Origin: Rhizophlyctis rosea
Taxonomy: Eukaryota > Chytridiomycota > Chytridiomycetes > Rhizophlyctidales > Rhizophlyctidaceae
Length of the DNA: 64,000 nucleotides
NCBI GenBank assembly: GCA_027596075.1
Contig: JADGJC010000066.1
Span: 95,447 to 159,446, forward strand
Direction: 5' to 3'
Shown here: positions 49,885 to 64,000 of the stretch, piece by piece
Position numbering within the stretch: the stretch's first letter is position 1
Layout: every line of letters starts with the position of its first letter
Position numbers and translations under genes: made by a program
The notes under the pieces: model-generated
Told to the model about the DNA's origin: nothing
Databases searched by the model: none
Seen by the model: the letters and a program-made list of their open reading frames with translations, nothing else

Positions 49885-50440
49885 CCGCTCCTCGCCAAGT
49901 AGCCAAACCAGCTACCTGCCCAGGCTCCGCCACGAGGAGGCGGCGGTCGTCGGAGCCCAATTAGTAAGAAGAATGGCGCTAAAGGACGGGTTACCTGCCA
50001 TGACCTGTTGGAAAAACCCACCCTGCATCGACAAAAGATTAACCAAAACGAGTACATATATATGAAAAGCAAGTGGACGTGTAGCTGCTGGACTGCTTGG
50101 GGTGGATATCACGGTGAGGGAAGCGTGCCTCCCACCGAAGTGGAAGTGGTTTCTCAGTCGGGGTTAGCCGGGGGCTGATGGATCTCAAGGCACAAAAAGG
50201 CCATGGTCGTACCGGCGCGAATCCGCCTTACACAGTCTGGCAAAACGGGCACTTGCACGCCCACTTGTTACCGGAAGCCCTCGTCCCAAGTCGTCTCCCC
50301 TCTCTACGCAGGCTGCTTGAGTGGGCGGGAGCAGCTATTTGATGTAAAAAAGTTTGTCAGTAAAGCGCTTGGATGTGAAGAGCGGTCGGAAGCGGAAACT
50401 CACGACTACGTGTCCTAAAATCCGCCGACGAAAAGGAAGC
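49880..50440. repeat. Structure-rich dispersed repeat, copy 1
   Basis: About 560 bp are clearly related (roughly 75-85% in the best parts) to 58230-58890, in the same orientation. Shared blocks are TGACCGCTCCTCGCCAAGTA, AATGGCGCTAAAGGACGGGT, CACCCTGCAT and GGGCACTTGCACGCCCACTT (TGCAT in copy 2). The first 75 bp fold back on themselves: GACCGC with GCGGTC, CTCCTCG with CGAGGAG, and an inner CAAGTAGC/GCTACCTG hairpin. No frame is conserved between copies. It ends about 0.5 kb before the decayed GTPase/W2/FHA gene. Confidence 0.8.
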
Positions 50441-50963
50441 CGCGCAGGAACTAACGAACGACGTCTGTTTGAAAGAAAAGCGTGAGTGGATGATGTTGAA
50501 GGCTGCGAGTGGAAGGCCGATAAGAAGACAGAGAAGTCCTCACCCCATGATAAGGGCCGCCCGACCGCCCAGTCCTCCGTGATAAATCGGATACCAGAAG
50601 ACAGAAAAGGACCTTGAATTATGAGAAAAGGAGTATTAGACGAGATTCTTGGTGGTCACTGACGAAAGTATCCACTTTCGAAAAATGCGTGCCTGTCAGC
50701 GACAGTTTGACCAAAGTCGACACGCACCCAATATAGTAGACAGTCGCAAAGAGTGGCTCAACCTTTCTTCAAATACGTGTGATGGTGTTGTGTTTTAGTG
50801 TTTGTGGAAGGAAGTCTGGGTTGGTCAAGGGTCAGTCTTCCTGGAGTTCCGTCCCATCGGCATTATCCTTTGGACAGGAGCTTACCAGAATTCTTGGGAC
50901 GAAGTGTTCTTCCTTGCGCATCTGCTACACCGTTGTTCCCCGCGAAGGCGCGGATACTGAGCA
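50441..50963. other. 5' flank of the decayed GTPase/W2/FHA paralogue
   Basis: The counterpart of the first ~25 codons of the downstream paralogue should lie at the right end of this stretch, but I find no in-frame ATG. Confidence 0.4.
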
Positions 50964-53900
50964 GTGCTGGCAGTGCGGCGACTATCGGCAACTATCGATA
51001 TAACAAGCCCTGAACAAGTATTCAGTTTCCTCGACTTCCGTTACGCGGATGAGGATGTTGTTTATCCCGATGACACCACCGTAAGATTCACAAGCATATG
51101 CTCTGCCTCCCGGAGTCCCCTGCCGCTTGCTGACTCGATGTGTTGTTGCAAGTGCGTTTATGTGGTCTCGTACCCGGGTCAAAAAGACCGTAGCAAGGAC
51201 ATCCGCACCAGAGCCGCCAAGCTAGGCGCCATCAATGATATCCATCGGCAGATCTTGGGTGCTACGTCGGTTCTTTTGATTGAAAGTTCAATTCCAGTTC
51301 GCTTTTTCCGACCCTGTCTACGAGCAAAATAAAGGACATTCACCATGCAACGAGTAGTAGCTGGTGTATCCTGTATGTTTGTCCCTGGTTATCTGATAGA
51401 GTACTTTTCAAAAACTGACTTTGGGATTTCACAGTTGCCGAATGTGTCTCTGGGCTCGTTGAAAGAGTCTTGTCGACCATTGTGACAAAGCCGATTAAGA
51501 TCTTGTTGCTTGGATCATCAAAAGTTGGAAAGTTTTCTCTGGTACGTTCTGATCCTGAATCCCCCCAAATGAGTCTCCTACCATTTGAGACCGATGCTGT
51601 CATCAATCGTAATCTGCACCTTCACAAAAATCACACATATCTTGTCTAGATTTCCCGCTACCGTCAAGACCGGTTCGACGTCGATCATTTCGAAACAGAT
51701 GTAGATGTTTGGAGTAAGAGGATGGTTGTTGACGGGAGATCAATCTTGGTTGAAATTATTGACACGGCAGGCTTGGAGCGCGGTGAGTGTTGGTCACGTA
51801 CATCCGAAAAATCTGAAAGCATATGGTGCTGTGGACAAGTCGACTTTGGTGGGAAAATTGGCATAATGAGTACCTATGAGAGAGCATTTCAAACGTTTCC
51901 CTGCTCGATGGCTGGATTGACCCTCCATTTGGAGATGGCAATCATTGCTTCTTTTGCGGATACCAATCACTTGTCCAAATCATCAACAGGGTTCTTCAAA
52001 GCCCGTGCGCCTTCCTATGTACAAGATTGCGATGGTATACTGCGTTTACAACATCACTTCGCGCGCCACGTTGGATGCGCTCAAAGACGCGCGCATGGGT
52101 TTCATGAAAGTTGTGAGTGTGGACAAGGTAGGTCATCATTGTTGGCGAAATCTAGATCTCTCTGTTGTTTTGCAGTGTTACTCACATCAAACTGCGACTT
52201 TGCGAAATAGATTCCAATAGTTGTGGTCGGAAACAAAAGTGATTTGGGAGATATGCGACAAGTTGATATTGCCGATGCGGAGGAAATGGCGTTGGCGTGG
52301 GGTGGATGTCCGGTTTTTGAAGTTTCGGCCTGTGAGAATGTAAACATCAGTGAAGCATTCAAGAAGTTGGCGAAGGAGATTGTTGCAAGGAAGCAGACTG
52401 CTAAGGTTCGTGGGTCGCGGGGCCTAAACCGCCTTGAAGCTTTTCAATAATTGCTCACCTGGATGTCATAGGTGACAAAGACTCCTCAAGAACAAGAGAA
52501 TGAGGCCATGTATAACTTGCTTAATTCATGGTTCCGTGAGCATGACGTCAAGGTACATCTTGTGGATCTTATCACTCCAACTTCACATCCACTCATACAA
52601 TATTTTGCCCTATCTTCAGCTGTTCATCAAAGACCTCGAAACCGTCCCACAGCAGGACCACCCTCGTCTTTTGATAGACCTCATCGGCACGAGCTTTGCC
52701 ATGGGTGTCAGGGAAGTCGAGCATCTTTGCAAGTTGCTGAGTTACGGAGATGTTCACAGGCATTTCGATGAACCAATGTTTTTGGATGGGTAAGGCATGA
52801 CCGAACATCTACCAAGTCCTCAATCAGTGATTACTGACCTCTTGCATGTCCAACAGCATCTACGACCAATTCACCACACTCGACACCACTGCCATTGAAT
52901 CTCCAGAAATAGTCTCCTGCGTAGCAGATCTATCAACGTTCCTCATCCGTCGCGACTTTCTCAACATCCAAAACATCGCAACTCTCTCCGAACCCCTTGT
53001 CGCCGCAAAAAGTTTCAGCGCGTTGGCTATCGTGGCTTTGATTGTGAAGAAGATCAAATCGGTTGAAGGCGAAGATGTGGCAGTGGGGTTGTGGAGGGAG
53101 TAGAAAGTGCAGGGTGGGGTTTGGGGCTTTTTCCCGGAGGAGGTGCGGACACCTGAAGGGTTGGCAGAGTGGATGGAGAGTGAGGGGTTGGAGTTTTTGG
53201 AACGGATATGGATTATTATGTTTCGGTTGGAAGAAAAGTTTGGGACTGATAGTGTTGAGGATATTGTTGCGTGGTTGGATGTAAGTGGATTAGCAATTCC
53301 CTACGTTCTGGTTGGTTCTGTGACTCAAGGCACTGCTCTTCTCCAACTTCCGTCGCAAAAGATCAAAACCTCAGAGGCGCTACGTTCCGATCCCGCCTTC
53401 ACACATGCAGTCACCATCTGCGTCCTCAATCACGTCGCCTCCAAAAGTCTCCTTCCCAATGGGCCCAACCAACCAGAAATCCCAATCACAACCGACATTA
53501 CATCTCTATGAGATCGCTTCTATACCAATACAAACCGATCGTTGTCAAGTATGCGCCCGATGCGGACAAGCAGCATGTCTTGTTACGAGCAGTCCAAACC
53601 TTTTGTGCCAATGTGCCTGTTGACGGTATGTATTTCAATTGTATTGTGAAGAGATGATCACGTGGAAGAGACTGAAGTTTCACTGGTCTTGACAGGGTTA
53701 TTGCAACACATTTTCCGTACTCTGTTTGAGATCGAGGTTGTCCAAAGGGACGTGTTTGACGTTTGGATCGCTGGTTGTGGCAATGTTGATGTGAGGAAGC
53801 AGGTGGTTGAGTTCGCTGTATATGATGCTCTAATGGAGGAAATGTCTTCCATCTTTTTTGAGTTAAAGCGATTTGTCATCTGCCCGCACCTGATGTGTCT

Positions 53901-54449
53901 TCTGATGAATATTATCCCTCTTCCATCCTGTCTTTACAGGGTGAAGAATCTTGTTTCTACATTCGGAAGAAGGAAGTGACGATCGGCCGGACATCGGCGG
54001 AGGTCGATATTGGGTTGGGTGATAGTTTGGCTCATTCTCCGCAACATGCAAGGTATGTTTCGATGTTGGTAGTTGGTGATCGACATGCTGTACTTTTTTT
54101 GACGGGATGTAGGTGCAGAATCAAACACAATGACGAATCAGGGAAATGAGTTTTACTGGTGACCGGCAAGAATGGTGTGCGTGTTGGTTGGGCGCAAGTC
54201 TCAATGGGGGAGAAAGTAGAACTGCAAAATGGGTGAGTTTTTCCTCTTATTGTTCTTATTGTACAAGATCATTGGCATTATTCATATAGTTTGCCAACTT
54301 GACGGTTATCGTCTGACATGGTGCTCCATCTATTAGGACGCGATTACAGTTTGAAAATGACATATTCAACTTCTACCTGCCTCACCGGCAACACCAACAA
54401 CCACCACAAGCTGCAGACGTCCCGCCGGAACAGCAGGAAGAGGAGGAAG

Positions 54450-54489
<40 letters not shown>

Positions 54490-54825
54490 CCACAACAACA
54501 ACAACAACAACAATGCCCTCCTTGTACCTTGGGTTCCAAAGGAACTTGTGCCGGAAGTTGTGGCAGCAGTGAAGGTGTAGGAGAAGAGTGGGGAGTATAA
54601 GCAGGCTGTTGAGGAGGAGGAGAGGAAGAAGAGGGGTGCGGCCAGTGGTGGGAGGGGGGAACGGCAGGCTGTTGATAGGGCGGCGAGAGCGGCTGCGCGG
54701 GAGGCAGCGAGGAGGAGGGAGGGGGAAAGGGGTGATTGAGGGGTTTTTGAGGGGGTTGTGGGGAGGGGGAGGATGGCGTATAAGGAGATGTGGTTGGAGT
54801 TAGGGTTTATTTTCGGGGTATGAGT
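50964..54825 (+). pseudogene. Upstream paralogue A: GTPase - MA3/W2 - FHA protein, decayed
   Basis: Exon by exon this copy parallels the gene at 59968. The N-terminal module (SPEQVFSFLDF, KCVYVVSYPGQKDRSKDI) lies at 50964-51080 and 51153-51372. The GTPase follows (ILLLGSSKVGKFSL, EIIDTAGLER, IPIVVVGNKSDLGD, FEVSACEN), then an MA3-like/W2 region (VEHLCKLLSYGDVHRHF, ALAIVALIVKKIKSVEG, QHVLLRAVQTFCANV, LLQHIFRTLFEIEVVQRDVF), an FHA domain (YIRKKEVTIGRTSAEVDIGL, TGKNGVRVGW) and an acidic/poly-Asn tail. Lesions are no in-frame ATG, TAA at 51330, a 2-nt deletion near 52040, TAG at 53101, a frame change near 53510, TGA at 54147 (Trp to stop) and TAG at 54578. The P-loop Ser/Thr is Phe (GKFS). Intron positions match the intact copy. 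This is a DNA-level duplicate that has died. Confidence 0.8.
54450..54513 (+). repeat. (AAC)n microsatellite in the tail of paralogue A
   Basis: About 20 AAC units with one CAC interruption encode poly-Asn in the reading frame. It lies at the position where the downstream copy has a CAG/CAA (poly-Gln) run. Confidence 0.95.
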
Positions 54826-58229: not shown

Positions 58230-58890
58230 AAAGTAGTGACCGCTCCTCGCCAAGTAGCGGCAAACCCGCTACTTGCCCAGGCCCCGCCACGAGGAGACGG
58301 CGGTCGTCGGGGCCCGATTAGCAAAAGAATGGCGCTAAAGGACGGGTTACCTGACTGACCTCCACAAAACACACCCTGCATTGACAAAAGCGTTAACCTA
58401 CAGCATACAGTACATACAAGAAACGGAGTGGGACATGCAGCTGCCGGACTGCGATGGGGCATCTATCAACGGTGGGATAGCGGTCTACCACCTAAGTGGT
58501 AGCAGATCTCAGGTTCGGACCAACCCGGGGGCCCATGGACCTCGAAGCCAAAAAGGCTCCGTTCGTATCTGCGCGAATTTGCCTCGCGCAGTCTAGCAAA
58601 CGGGCACTGCATGCCCACTTCCTCACCGAAAAACCCTCGTCCCGAAATCGTCTCCCTGCGATCACACGCAAGGCTGCGTGGGCGGCGCAGCTGCTTGTCG
58701 GAGAATGGCGAATCGAAGTAGATGTATGGACGTGTAGGTATGATGGTGGAAGTGGTTCGGAGTGGGTGGATGATCGTGCAAAATAAGAAACGGCGATGAT
58801 GAGCAACCCGGTTGATATCCGAAAAAGTCTTATGATGATAGAACGTACCAGTGCGTGTCTCCAAAATCCGCGAGCGACAGAGCGCCGCAA
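58230..58890. repeat. Structure-rich dispersed repeat, copy 2
   Basis: Direct copy of the element at 49880. Its foldback is better paired: GACCGC...GCGGTC outside, CTCCTCG...CGAGGAG next, and an inner hairpin of CAAGTAGCGG and CCGCTACTTG around a short CAAA loop (58247-58274). A second hairpin, ACCACCTAAGTGGT, lies at ~58489. The right end is approximate; weak similarity continues to the CCAAAATCCGC block. It lies ~1.1 kb before the intact GTPase/W2/FHA gene. Confidence 0.8.
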
Positions 58891-59967: not shown

Positions 59968-62900
59968 ATGGACGCAACTGCCATCCCAGCCAGCATCCCA
60001 GCTGGTCCCGTTGGCGGCGACGGCGACGCATCTGAAGTACCGCAAAGTCTAGCCACCTCGCTAAACATTCAAACACCCGCCGAATTGTTCGACTTTCTGT
60101 GCCTGCCATACTGCGCCGAAGCCACAAAGGAGTTTGATGACAAAAAGGTGAGACTCGCAAGCATACTATGTTCCTCACTGTAGCAGCCCTGTTACCGACA
60201 CTCGGTCCCAAGTGCGTATTTGTTATCGGATACGAAGGCCCGCGAAATCGAAAGAAGGACATCAACACGAGGATGATCGGTAAACTCTCCATCGAAGATT
60301 GCTACCATGAGGTACTCGGTGGAGTGTCCGCGCTTATTTTCGAAGGGCGCATCTCCACTTTTTATATGAGGAAGTATCTGGCTAATGAAGGGAGCCCATT
60401 CGAGTATAGGAGGGTCGCACCTGTGATGACATGTATGTTGATATCATTCTTAACAGACAATGAGCGTTGTGACAAACTAATGTTTGCTCTGCTGGCGCTT
60501 TGATAGTGTTCGAGTGCATGTCATCTATGATTCACAAAGTGCTCCGCGCGGCGGCTCCAGCAACGGTTTGCGTCATGATGATCGGTGCCGAGAAGGTCGG
60601 CAAAACATCATTGGTATGTCATGCATCTCCTCATGTCTCTGGTTCACCTTGCACGCGACCGTCACCGTTACCATGAACATGGCGTTTGAGTCACCAGCAA
60701 ATGTCTTGTGGACTCCATTACTCACAAAATCTTCTGAACCAACCCAGATGAAACGCTACTGCGACGGGACCTTCAACCCGATCCTGGCCCCAAGACCCAA
60801 ATACCTCGACTCAAAAGAATTGCTTGTCGATAATATGCCCATTGAACTGTCCTTGGTTGATACCCCCGAGTTCAATAATGGTGAGTATCTGCAGGCCATC
60901 ATCTGCTGGAGACTGAACAATCAAAGTATTGCGGAGACAAAGCCTGTGCGCGGATGTCAGCGCAGTGAAACAACCATCCCAGAGGGAGTTTTGTGATTGT
61001 TGTCGTCTGCTTGTGTGTCCCGATTGGCCCCCGTTTCTATGGAGTTGGCAGTCGTTGGTTTCTTTTTCCTCTCGTTTACAGCTACCAATCACTTGTTCCC
61101 TCACTTCATAGAGCGGTTCATGCCTACTGTCAACAAATACATGGAGGAAGTCGAAGGTATCGTCGCCGTGGTTGATATCACCAGGCATTCTACGTTGGAG
61201 GAATTGAAGAAAGTATGTCAAGGTGATTTCAGTACGTTGAACGTGGACGAGGTGCGTCAAGTTCCCCGCCGCGACATTTTCTGCGCATCGTCAAAACTCC
61301 GCAGCACCACCTCATCGCAATCTTGCCATGTACACAAAACAGGTTCCGGTCATGTTAGTTGCGAGCAAGATGGACATGACTGGGCGCGAAGTTACGCAGG
61401 AGGAACTAAAAGAATTTGGCGAGGAGTGGGGAGCATGGAACTTGGCTGAGACATCCGCCGCACACAACGTCAATGTCAGTGAAATGTTCTTGGACCTGGT
61501 AAAAGCGATTTTGGCGGTTCGCGAACGAAAGAAGGTTCGTGGGGATTTCATTATGACAGTGGTGGAAAGTGCGCATGGATGCTCAGCTTCAAAACATTTT
61601 AGGAGAAGAAGGATAAGCGGAAACGAGGGGAGGAGAGTGTGAGGGATTTGGTGGGACAGTGGTTTGAACCACAAAGGTAAACCATGCTTTTCGTCATCAT
61701 CACAAAAAAAAACAGCAAGCGATTGATGCATGTTTTCGGAATCTTTCCAAACCCCCATTTCCAGATGTTCATTACAAAACTCGAGTTCATCGCGCCCGAC
61801 TTTCACCTACTTCTCCTCAAAACCCTCATCAATGGTGCCTTTACGACAGGCGTTGCAGATGTCGATAAGTTGTGTGAATTGTTGAGTAAGGGTGACGTCC
61901 TGAGGCACATGAGCCCGGACATGTTCATGGAAAGGTAAGATTGTTCCACCTACATCCCGATGAGACCCATTATCCGATTCCTGACGCCCCGCTCGTGATC
62001 CACCAGTGTAACCGTACACATTGCAAGCGTCAACATCACCGCCGTTGACTCTCCCTCCATTATCCCATGCATTGGTCACTTGACGGCTTTTCTCCTCCTG
62101 GAAAAGGTCATGGGCATCCAGGATGTGCATCATATGTGTGAGCCTCTGATTAAGGCAGACAGTCAGGGTGCGGTCGCTATTTTGGCGGCTGTTTTGAAGC
62201 GGATTAGGAGTGTGGCGGGTGAGGAGGGTGCTGCGGCGGTTTGGAACGATTGGAAACAGGAGATCAGTATGATGGGGTTTTGGCCGGGGGCGATGCAAAG
62301 TGTCGAGGTTATGGTGTTGTGGATGGGGGATGAAGGATTGGAATGTGTGGATCCGGCATTGGTGGTTTCGGTGGGGTTGAAAGAGCGGTTGGGGAAGGAT
62401 GATGTGGGAGATGTTCTGAGATGGTTGGATGTAAGTTCTGCTTGATGTTCTTTCAGTTTTTTGTGGTTGATGTGCTGATGTGAAGTTTATCTCATCAGTT
62501 GACAGTTCCTGAAGCCCTAATCTCCAAACCCGCCTTCCTTGAAAACATCGTCTCATGTATAATCTATTACATGCTGTTACGAACGGTCTTCACAAATCCC
62601 GATCAACCAGCACCCGAAGTAACGCCTGAACACGCCGACACCTTCCGCACTATCCTCGCCGAAGTCAAACCTCTCCTCCACAAATACGCCACAACTGAAG
62701 AGCGGAAAGTCGCGGCGTTGCTCACCGTGCAGAAGTTCTGTGCGACGGTCAACGGTCCTCAGGGTAAGAATTCATGGATTGCGTCAAACAGGGAACTTGA
62801 TGGAAACGATTTGAGATTGAAAACCCTTTTTGATGCTTTTGCTAGAACTGCTTGGCTACATCTTCCGCGCCATGTACGAAGTCGAGGCTATGGAGCGTAA

Positions 62901-64000
62901 GATGTATGATATTTGGGCGTTGCGGTGCGGGAAACCAGGTGGAAAGATGATTGTGGCTTCTGCGTTGTACCTTGCATTGCTGAAGGTGAGTCGGTCATAT
63001 CTGTTGCTCCGCAAATGCTTTTTTTTCGTCGCTTTCGGCGTACGTTGCACAGCCTTCTGATCCAACGGATTTGATCAATATACAGGCGGAGAATACCGAA
63101 TACTACATCCGGAAGGGCGAAATCATTATCGGGCGCGGTACGGAAGGGGTCGATTTCTGGTTGGGTGATGATCAGTGGTTTGCGGTGGATCACGCACGGT
63201 GGGTTCAATGGAATTTGAAGACATCGGGAAGGATGGCTGATTCCAATGCGTTGGACTACAGGATTCGCTTTGATGCCGACGGTGGTACTTGGAAGATAAT
63301 GGTGATGGGACAGAATGGAGTGGGTGTTGGCGGGATTCAGATTCCTGCTGGCGAGACAGTCGACCTCCATCACCGGTACGTTTCTCTTCCCTTCCTTGAT
63401 TGGGCGCACTTGTTGAACTTTCGTGATCATCAGTTTCACACATTTTTTTTCTTTTCTTCAGTGACAAAGTCAGATTTCACGATACGGAGTTTGAGTTTGT
63501 ACTTCCTCACGAACGCCATCTCGAACCTCCGCCAAAACCCGTTACGTCGGCTGAGGTCGAGGAAGAAGAAGAGGAAGCGGTGGAGAAGGAGGGAGCACAG
63601 CAACAGCAGCAGCAGCAACAACACCACCAACAGCAACAACAACCACCAGGCCAAACAATCTCCCTCACAGCCAACAACCTCAAAAAGTACTCTCGAGTAA
63701 TCTCCACCCGTCGAATCCCACAATGGGAACACGACCACATCATCACTCTCATCCGCAACTTTCTCCAAACCCGTCTCGGAGCCCGCAGTCTCGAATGCGA
63801 ACGACCCTCGACAAAAGCGACAAATGCGCCGCATGTTCCGTTTGTGCCGTCGGAGTTGGAGGATGAAGTCAAGGATATTGTGGCGGCGTTCAGGGCGTCG
63901 GAGGGGTATGAGGTGATGGCGCAGGCGGACAAGCAGCGGAAGAAGGAGGAGGAAGCGGGTGGGGTGGGGGGTGTGCAGGCGAGGGAGGCTAGGGCTGCGA
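59968..64000 (+). CDS. Paralogue B: Ras-like GTPase - eIF4G-type MA3/W2 - FHA multidomain protein (runs off the window)
   Basis: Proposed exons: 59968-60147, 60213-60432, 60507-60613, 60748-60880, 61082-61251, 61343-61534, 61603-61676, 61765-61934, 62007-62430, 62499-62763, 62846-62985, 63086-63198, 63262-63375 and 63462 to the end, at least ~947 residues. Residues 1-133 are an unknown module (KCVFVIGYEGPRNRKKDI). About 134-334 is a Ras-superfamily fold with P-loop GAEKVGKTS, DTPE in place of DTAG, SKMD in place of NKxD, and TSA. About 355-690 resembles the eIF4G C-terminal HEAT region: an MA3-like half (VDKLCELLSKGDVLRHM, LAAVLKRIRSVAGEEGAAAV) and a W2 half (LHKYATTEERKVAALLTVQK, LGYIFRAMYEVEAMERKMYD). 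About 692-785 is an FHA domain (EIIIGRGTEGVDFWLGD, DHAR, GQNGVGVGG). An acidic run, poly-Gln and a helical tail follow. Exon 7 is 74 nt, which leaves a 1-nt phase conflict with exon 8; every other junction is in frame. Confidence 0.75.
63598..63651 (+). repeat. CAG/CAA/CAC run (poly-Gln) in the tail of paralogue B
   Basis: In-frame CAG/CAA codons with CAC interruptions encode about 15 Gln and 2 His after an acidic stretch, just C-terminal to the FHA domain. Confidence 0.9.

Follow-up and report, generated by a model that had tools for sequence, protein, structure and literature searches.

The end of a contig from the chytrid fungus Rhizophlyctis rosea raises the question of whether a Ras-type GTPase domain, a HEAT region of eIF4G type and an FHA domain that follow one another on the same strand belong to a single gene and, if they do, where the HEAT region came from. 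The studied window, meaning the whole stretch of DNA that was analysed, covers the final 64 kb of contig C581, and the genome searched comprises 44.1 Mb in 634 contigs. At the level of sequence, the gene in question (gene A) is shown to be chimeric: a C-terminal block of the translation initiation factor eIF4G is set between an N-terminal module (N-module) with a GTPase domain and an FHA domain, and the arrangement occurs in two tandem copies, one of which (copy B) is broken. A preliminary description of the locus had proposed this order of domains, and a check of positions places all of the motifs that it quoted in that order and within the stretch of gene A. The features of gene A, in window coordinates, are as follows.

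59968-64000, plus strand: gene A, reading N-module, Ras-type GTPase, MA3-linker-W2, FHA and polyglutamine (polyQ) tail
59968-60147, 60213-60432 and 60507-60613, plus strand: exons 1-3, in open frame with GT..AG introns, holding the ATG, the N-module and the P-loop
60566-61534, plus strand: Ras-type GTPase domain, exons 3-6 (to 60613, 60748-60880, 61112-61251, 61343-61534)
60859-60873, plus strand: G3 motif, DTPEF (full stretch DTPEFNNERF)
61364-61375, plus strand: G4 motif, SKMD (NKSD in copy B)
61448-61459, plus strand: G5 motif, ETSA
61603-62985, plus strand: MA3-linker-W2 block, exons 7-11 (61603-61676, 61716 or 61765 to 61934, 62007-62430, 62499-62763, 62846-62985)
61651-61764, plus strand: ambiguous exon 7/8 junction, with two splice choices that keep the frame and a copy B-like pair that breaks it
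63086-63521, plus strand: FHA domain, exons 12-14 (63086-63198, 63262-63375 and the start of 63462-64000)
63522-64000, plus strand: C-terminal tail, with an acidic stretch, polyQ/H and a charged tail

Gene A starts with an ATG at 59968 and is truncated on its 3′ side at 64000, where both the contig and the window end. Given 13 GT..AG introns and 14 exons, its frame is open over 953 codons to this point: the N-module occupies residues ~1-153, the GTPase 154-324, the MA3-linker-W2 block 325-698 and the FHA domain 699 to ~791, followed by the tail. The stop codon falls past the contig end, and a search for the continuation on other contigs returned, beyond the self-match, polyQ-type matches alone.

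Origin of the MA3-linker-W2 block

The eIF4G gene of the same genome (contig C28, locus L025, 2209-7232) is recognized by its MIF4G (177.2 bits), MA3 (62.6 bits) and W2 (42.1 bits) domains. The MIF4G domain is contained within one long exon, and MA3 and W2 lie in exons downstream; this MIF4G-MA3-W2 layout is of the animal type. The MA3-linker-W2 part of this protein is homologous to the block of gene A over its length: in a BLASTP comparison of this single pair, as distinct from a whole-genome search, 115 of 368 columns are identical (31%, E 1e-65), and an exon-by-exon search of the whole genome linked the two at 2.9e-22 and 1.4e-12. The introns are likewise alike. Three introns within the compared block share both alignment column and phase in gene A and in eIF4G: between MFME and S or VYKK and T (phase 2), after WLD (phase 0), and between PQ and E or PK and E (phase 1). 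By our own arithmetic, which assumes uniform placement over ~993 bases, agreement of three out of three by chance would occur in ~1 in 1.6e8 draws. In addition, exon 9 measures 424 bases in gene A, copy B and eIF4G, and a phase 0 intron 5′ of exon 8 is common to copy B and eIF4G, with gene A deviating.

A tree of the block groups gene A with copy B (support 100/100) and this pair with the R. rosea eIF4G (97/96), to the exclusion of Obelidium, Polychytrium and the remaining rows; it holds 11 rows, with four of its eight inner branches open and three long end branches. For the eIF4G relatives P0023 and P0035, from which a near full-length block was obtainable, the alignment also extends through W2. 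Because homology, intron agreement and the clade in the tree all point the same way, the block is, on this evidence, a copy made as DNA, introns included, of the organism's own eIF4G. The joins of the block to its neighbouring modules coincide with introns 6 and 11, a pattern suggestive of exon shuffling. The assignment of the block to the eIF4G type, the riskiest claim of the preliminary description, is borne out by the same observations.

Profile searches see this ancestry less clearly. The W2 motifs LHKYATTEERKVAALLTVQK (62676-62735, exon 10) and LGYIFRAMYEVEAMERKMYD (62851-62910, exon 11) are present in gene A, and the Pfam W2 profile stays below its cut-off of 30 bits both in pieces of gene A (best 0.023, 15.2 bits) and in a piece of copy B (5.5e-4, 20.4 bits). 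W2 is not listed in a Pfam scan of the whole 953-residue gene A protein, and Pfam MA3 was not reported for gene A, whole or in pieces. A one-sequence phmmer search of the block against the PDB placed human DAP5 (3l6a) at the top (E 5.6e-5, residues 51-311 of the piece), followed by four eIF4G entries (E 0.0042 to 0.094), eIF2B-epsilon (1.1) and three unrelated proteins; with the R. rosea eIF4G, this DAP5 match is what the MA3/W2 identity rests on. Relative to the R. rosea eIF4G, identity by part is 23% (MA3), 37% (middle), 39% (W2 extension) and 36% (W2) in gene A, and 23%, 38%, 54% and 27% in copy B. Beside the expected factors, other W2 matches in the genome lie on contigs C146, C389 and C52 (57.2 bits joined, 23.3 and 18.6 bits).

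MIF4G is not listed for gene A at E<=1 in the Pfam scan of the refined protein; gene A is therefore set outside eIF4G proper. In eIF4G, MIF4G is accompanied by a long N-terminal part and W2 closes the protein; in the chimera, the N-module and GTPase stand in place of the former and an FHA domain follows W2. By sequence comparison, the chimera is an eIF4G-derived paralogue.

The domains around the block

The GTPase domain of gene A passes the Pfam Ras cut-off, with E 8.7e-21 in the first splice model and 6.5e-24 (84.8 bits) in the refined one, and reaches 47.3 bits with NCBIfam small_GTP (cut-off 42.5). Its best PDB match, obtained with the first version of exon 5, is Rab12 (1.6e-15). The exon 5 acceptor at 61081 was later replaced by 61111, as suggested by copy B and Rab12, and the refined model scores 84.8 bits for Ras, up from 74.6. 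The P-loop GAEKVGKTS (60584-60610, exon 3) satisfies GxxxxGK[ST]. The G3 motif is usually DxxG with a catalytic glutamine and the G4 motif NKxD. Like Rab, Rap and Ras GTPases, the domain has the Ras fold by Pfam, a P-loop and G5; unlike them, it is internal to a long protein and reads DTPEF at G3 and SKMD at G4. Its nearest genes in the genome are ordinary small-GTPase matches (1.6e-8 with gene A as query, 2.4e-6 with copy B).

Recognition of the FHA domain depended on the splice model. As first spliced, the region scored 0.0066 in Pfam, under the cut-off, gave no FHA among its PDB matches (best E 0.4) and yielded a fold model with a predicted local confidence (pLDDT) of 38. The single 290-base exon 12 of that model was dropped when copy B revealed an intron there (63199-63261 in gene A). 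With this intron removed, all four pieces of gene A, of 105 to 438 residues, pass the Pfam cut-off of 20.7 bits (30.1, 29.0, 27.5 and 26.4 bits); the best, of 105 residues, covers positions 1-66 of the 67-position profile at E 6.6e-7. A piece of copy B also passes (25.7 bits). A scan of the refined protein at its full 953 residues does not list FHA, a miss presumed to arise from HMMER prefilters acting on a long, biased protein. When aligned by hhalign with FHA stretches of the same genome, chosen by eye from seven of ten loci (L037, L039 and L040, whose frames gave no clean domain, were left out), the domain scored 26.9 with the intron still in and 32.9 without it, and neither score was reached in any of 200 column shuffles. 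Weak PDB matches are CEP170 (4jon, E 0.21) and 6hc0 (E 0.32), and 16 FHA places were found in the genome. FHA domains usually show a conserved GR, SRxH (SxxH) and NG. Gene A is like them in keeping GR, H and NG, in IIIGRG (63122-63139, exon 12), DHAR (spanning exons 12/13) and GQNGVGVGG (63308-63334, exon 13), with the profile covered almost end to end; it is unlike them in reading AVDH where SRxH is usual. Of the profile checks proposed at the outset, Ras came out positive and FHA positive in pieces of both copies but not in the whole protein, with W2 under its cut-off and MA3 not reported.

The N-module (CVFVIGYEG..KDINTR; 60213-60432 in gene A, 51153-51372 in copy B) is a conserved domain that matched these two genes only in the genome search, in which that of gene A retrieved that of copy B at 36% over 70 residues. 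The exon 2 acceptor at 60186 gave stops and was dropped in favour of 60212, which leaves the frame open and agrees with copy B. Against Pfam, the gene A module gave nothing trustworthy (best 0.044, 14.8 bits, cut-off 27); neither the PDB nor NCBIfam returned a match, and the copy B piece had none in Pfam. A weak fold model from the two sequences (pLDDT 49) suggests alternating strands and helices.

The tandem copy and the reading frame of gene A

Copy B lies upstream of gene A on the same strand and ends ~5.4 kb before the start of gene A.

50961-54580, plus strand: copy B, broken, with the same module order as gene A
to 51080 and 51153-51372, plus strand: N-module of copy B
51435-52405, plus strand: GTPase of copy B, in pieces
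52472 to ~53845, plus strand: MA3-linker-W2 of copy B
53940-54052, 54113-54232 and from 54337, plus strand: FHA domain of copy B, followed by a polyN/Q tail

The two copies share 34% identity over alignment A1, and Pfam Ras finds the GTPase of copy B in two pieces (1.7e-12 and 1.4e-12). In-frame stops occur in copy B at 51330, 53101, 54147 and 54578, in the exons matching exons 2, 9, 13 and 14 of gene A, and a reading of the alignment places frame breaks in those matching exons 5 and 10. Exon lengths are nonetheless closely similar between gene A and copy B (220/220, 107/107, 133/133, 192/195, 170/170, 424/424 and 113/113, with exon 7 at 74/81); exons 2 and 3 are among those of equal length. 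The donor GTTCGTGGG 3′ of the GTPase is identical in both. A simple repeat follows the FHA domain in each copy, polyQ/H in gene A (63598-63650) and, as framed, polyN-type in copy B (54450-54514).

Differences between the copies are concentrated at third codon positions. The difference at third versus first and second positions is 0.64 versus 0.49 in exons 2-3 (p 0.006), 0.70 versus 0.48 in exons 4 and 6 (p 7e-5), 0.59 versus 0.40 in exons 7, 8, 9 and 11 (p 3e-7) and 0.58 versus 0.42 in the FHA exons (p 0.04); the count leaves out exons 1, 5, 10 (5 and 10 being frame-broken in copy B) and 13, with exon 12 contributing 37 codons and the last exon 22. This excess, present in each of the four groups compared, indicates prolonged constraint on coding and, together with the recurrence of the module order in copy B, makes the proposed architecture more than a chance observation. 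A dispersed repeat, which has nine matches in the genome overall at 70-100% identity, is found upstream of each copy and in the same orientation (58280-58760 and 49923-50336, 76% identical); it may have contributed to the duplication in tandem.

In gene A, the frame turns on the exon 7/8 junction. Spliced there as in copy B and eIF4G, gene A goes out of frame, with a first stop at residue 389. A 39-base intron (61677-61715) keeps it open over 953 codons, and the donor at 61651 with the acceptor at 61764 keeps it open over 928. The deviation may reflect different splicing, a fresh break or an assembly error.

Relatives and possible roles

Protein searches found no relative elsewhere: none of 7991 scored candidates reached E<=0.001, and none of 7997 reached E<=0.01 with the alignment of gene A and copy B as query; these searches used splice models that were later refined. 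As a control, a 638-residue piece of the R. rosea eIF4G found 191 matches, and among the best 120 of these the named ones are largely fungal, with the chytrids Polychytrium, Chytriomyces, Irineochytrium, Synchytrium and Obelidium represented. Since eIF4G is far better conserved, the control shows that chytrid proteins are searchable, not that a divergent chimera would be detected, and divergent relatives could have been missed. An abstract-level literature search turned up no description of a protein combining GTPase, eIF4G and FHA domains, in keeping with the earlier statement that no family is known to have this order, and we know of no such protein. As far as the searches reach, all of the domains are known, and it is their combination and the descent from eIF4G that appear to be new.

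The nearest precedents are proteins that use parts of eIF4G. PDCD4 (MA3 only) and BZW/5MP (W2) modulate initiation with single HEAT modules of eIF4G or eIF5 type; to our knowledge, they have no GTPase, no FHA domain and no MA3-linker-W2 tandem, and DAP5 (eIF4G2) likewise has no GTPase or FHA domain. DAP5, the best PDB match of the gene A block, resembles the chimera in being related to eIF4G yet missing a portion of it. It differs in keeping MIF4G: PMC9726905 describes it as retaining the middle and C-terminal eIF4G parts and acting via eIF4A, eIF3 and eIF2beta.

Could the gene be an artefact of joining two or three adjacent genes? The exon 6 frame, if read through, hits a stop ending at 61642, as separate genes would allow, but this reading is very improbable: the module order and near-equal exon lengths repeat in copy B, the gaps between GTPase and MA3 (68 bases) and between W2 and FHA (100 bases) are both in-phase GT..AG introns, and the donor after the GTPase is common to both copies. 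That a formerly functional chimera is now dead or dying in both copies, with gene A freshly broken at exon 7/8, is a more serious prospect, though still improbable. It would account for the loss of frame with the splice sites of copy B and eIF4G, for an exon 7 of 74 rather than 81 bases and for the lesions in six exons of copy B; yet outside exon 7/8 gene A is open over its 14 exons, two other splice choices carry it to 953 or 928 codons, and long neutral drift to 34% identity should have left more lesions in gene A.

For an intact gene A, the reading we favour, tentatively and at somewhat less than even confidence, is a decoy or modulator of translation initiation derived from eIF4G. With the C-terminal HEAT arm of eIF4G but no MIF4G, the protein cannot serve as a complete scaffold for initiation; it would vie with eIF4G for eIF4A or another factor that binds the MA3/linker surface, while the FHA domain would hold the protein at a partner and the GTPase head, nucleotide-bound and probably slow or non-hydrolysing, would act as a fixed or slow switch. 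This reading is preferred because the nearest precedents, DAP5, PDCD4 and BZW/5MP, act by taking over or blocking a portion of the machinery. Nearly as likely is that the block now serves simply as a HEAT scaffold in a signalling adaptor, with a GTP-binding head, a helical spacer and an FHA domain and no role in translation. Low MA3 identity, depleted acids at the W2 end, the missing MIF4G and an N-module that matches no family would all suit such an adaptor, but the best-kept parts, the middle and the W2 extension, would be unneeded in a mere spacer. A less probable form of the connection to translation is a covalent link between signalling and protein synthesis made by exon shuffling, in which a GTP-bound head and a phosphothreonine reader would steer the MA3-W2 arm, and a phosphosite would recruit or starve initiation factors locally.

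Several features weigh against the decoy or modulator reading. The G3 motif of gene A (DTPEF) is without DxxG and glutamine, copy B reads DTAGLER, and the catalytic glutamine is absent in both; because of this absence, poor GTP hydrolysis is expected from Ras biochemistry, so that of the proposed GTPase switch the GTPase stands and the switch is weakened. The FHA serine is replaced by alanine in gene A (AVDH) and kept in copy B (SPQH), and the phospho-reader of the preliminary description likewise holds as an FHA domain and less well as a reader. The MA3 part of gene A stands at 23%, with the middle (37%) and W2 extension (39%) matching best; eIF4A binding can therefore not be assumed, and PMC9977666 states that the MA3 of DAP5 does not bind eIF4A. 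The same source describes aromatic/acidic boxes as binding Mnk1 and, in DAP5, eIF2beta. At the W2 end, gene A has 4 acids in 36 residues, compared with 9 in 38 (copy B), 8 in 42 (R. rosea eIF4G) and 9 in 38-42 (three others), and 3 aromatics compared with 4, 5 and 4-5, respectively; this depletion of acids makes partners of such a box doubtful for gene A. Finally, the exon 7/8 junction may mean that gene A is broken too.

The locus presents a core translation factor that appears to have been cut up and rebuilt in a traceable way: a single genome contains the donor gene, the introns that it shares with the chimera, the newly joined domains and a sister copy that is broken. If gene A is expressed, it would be an unusual link of signalling to protein synthesis, and a natural GTPase-eIF4G-FHA chimera for asking if signals can control the C-terminal HEAT arm of eIF4G.

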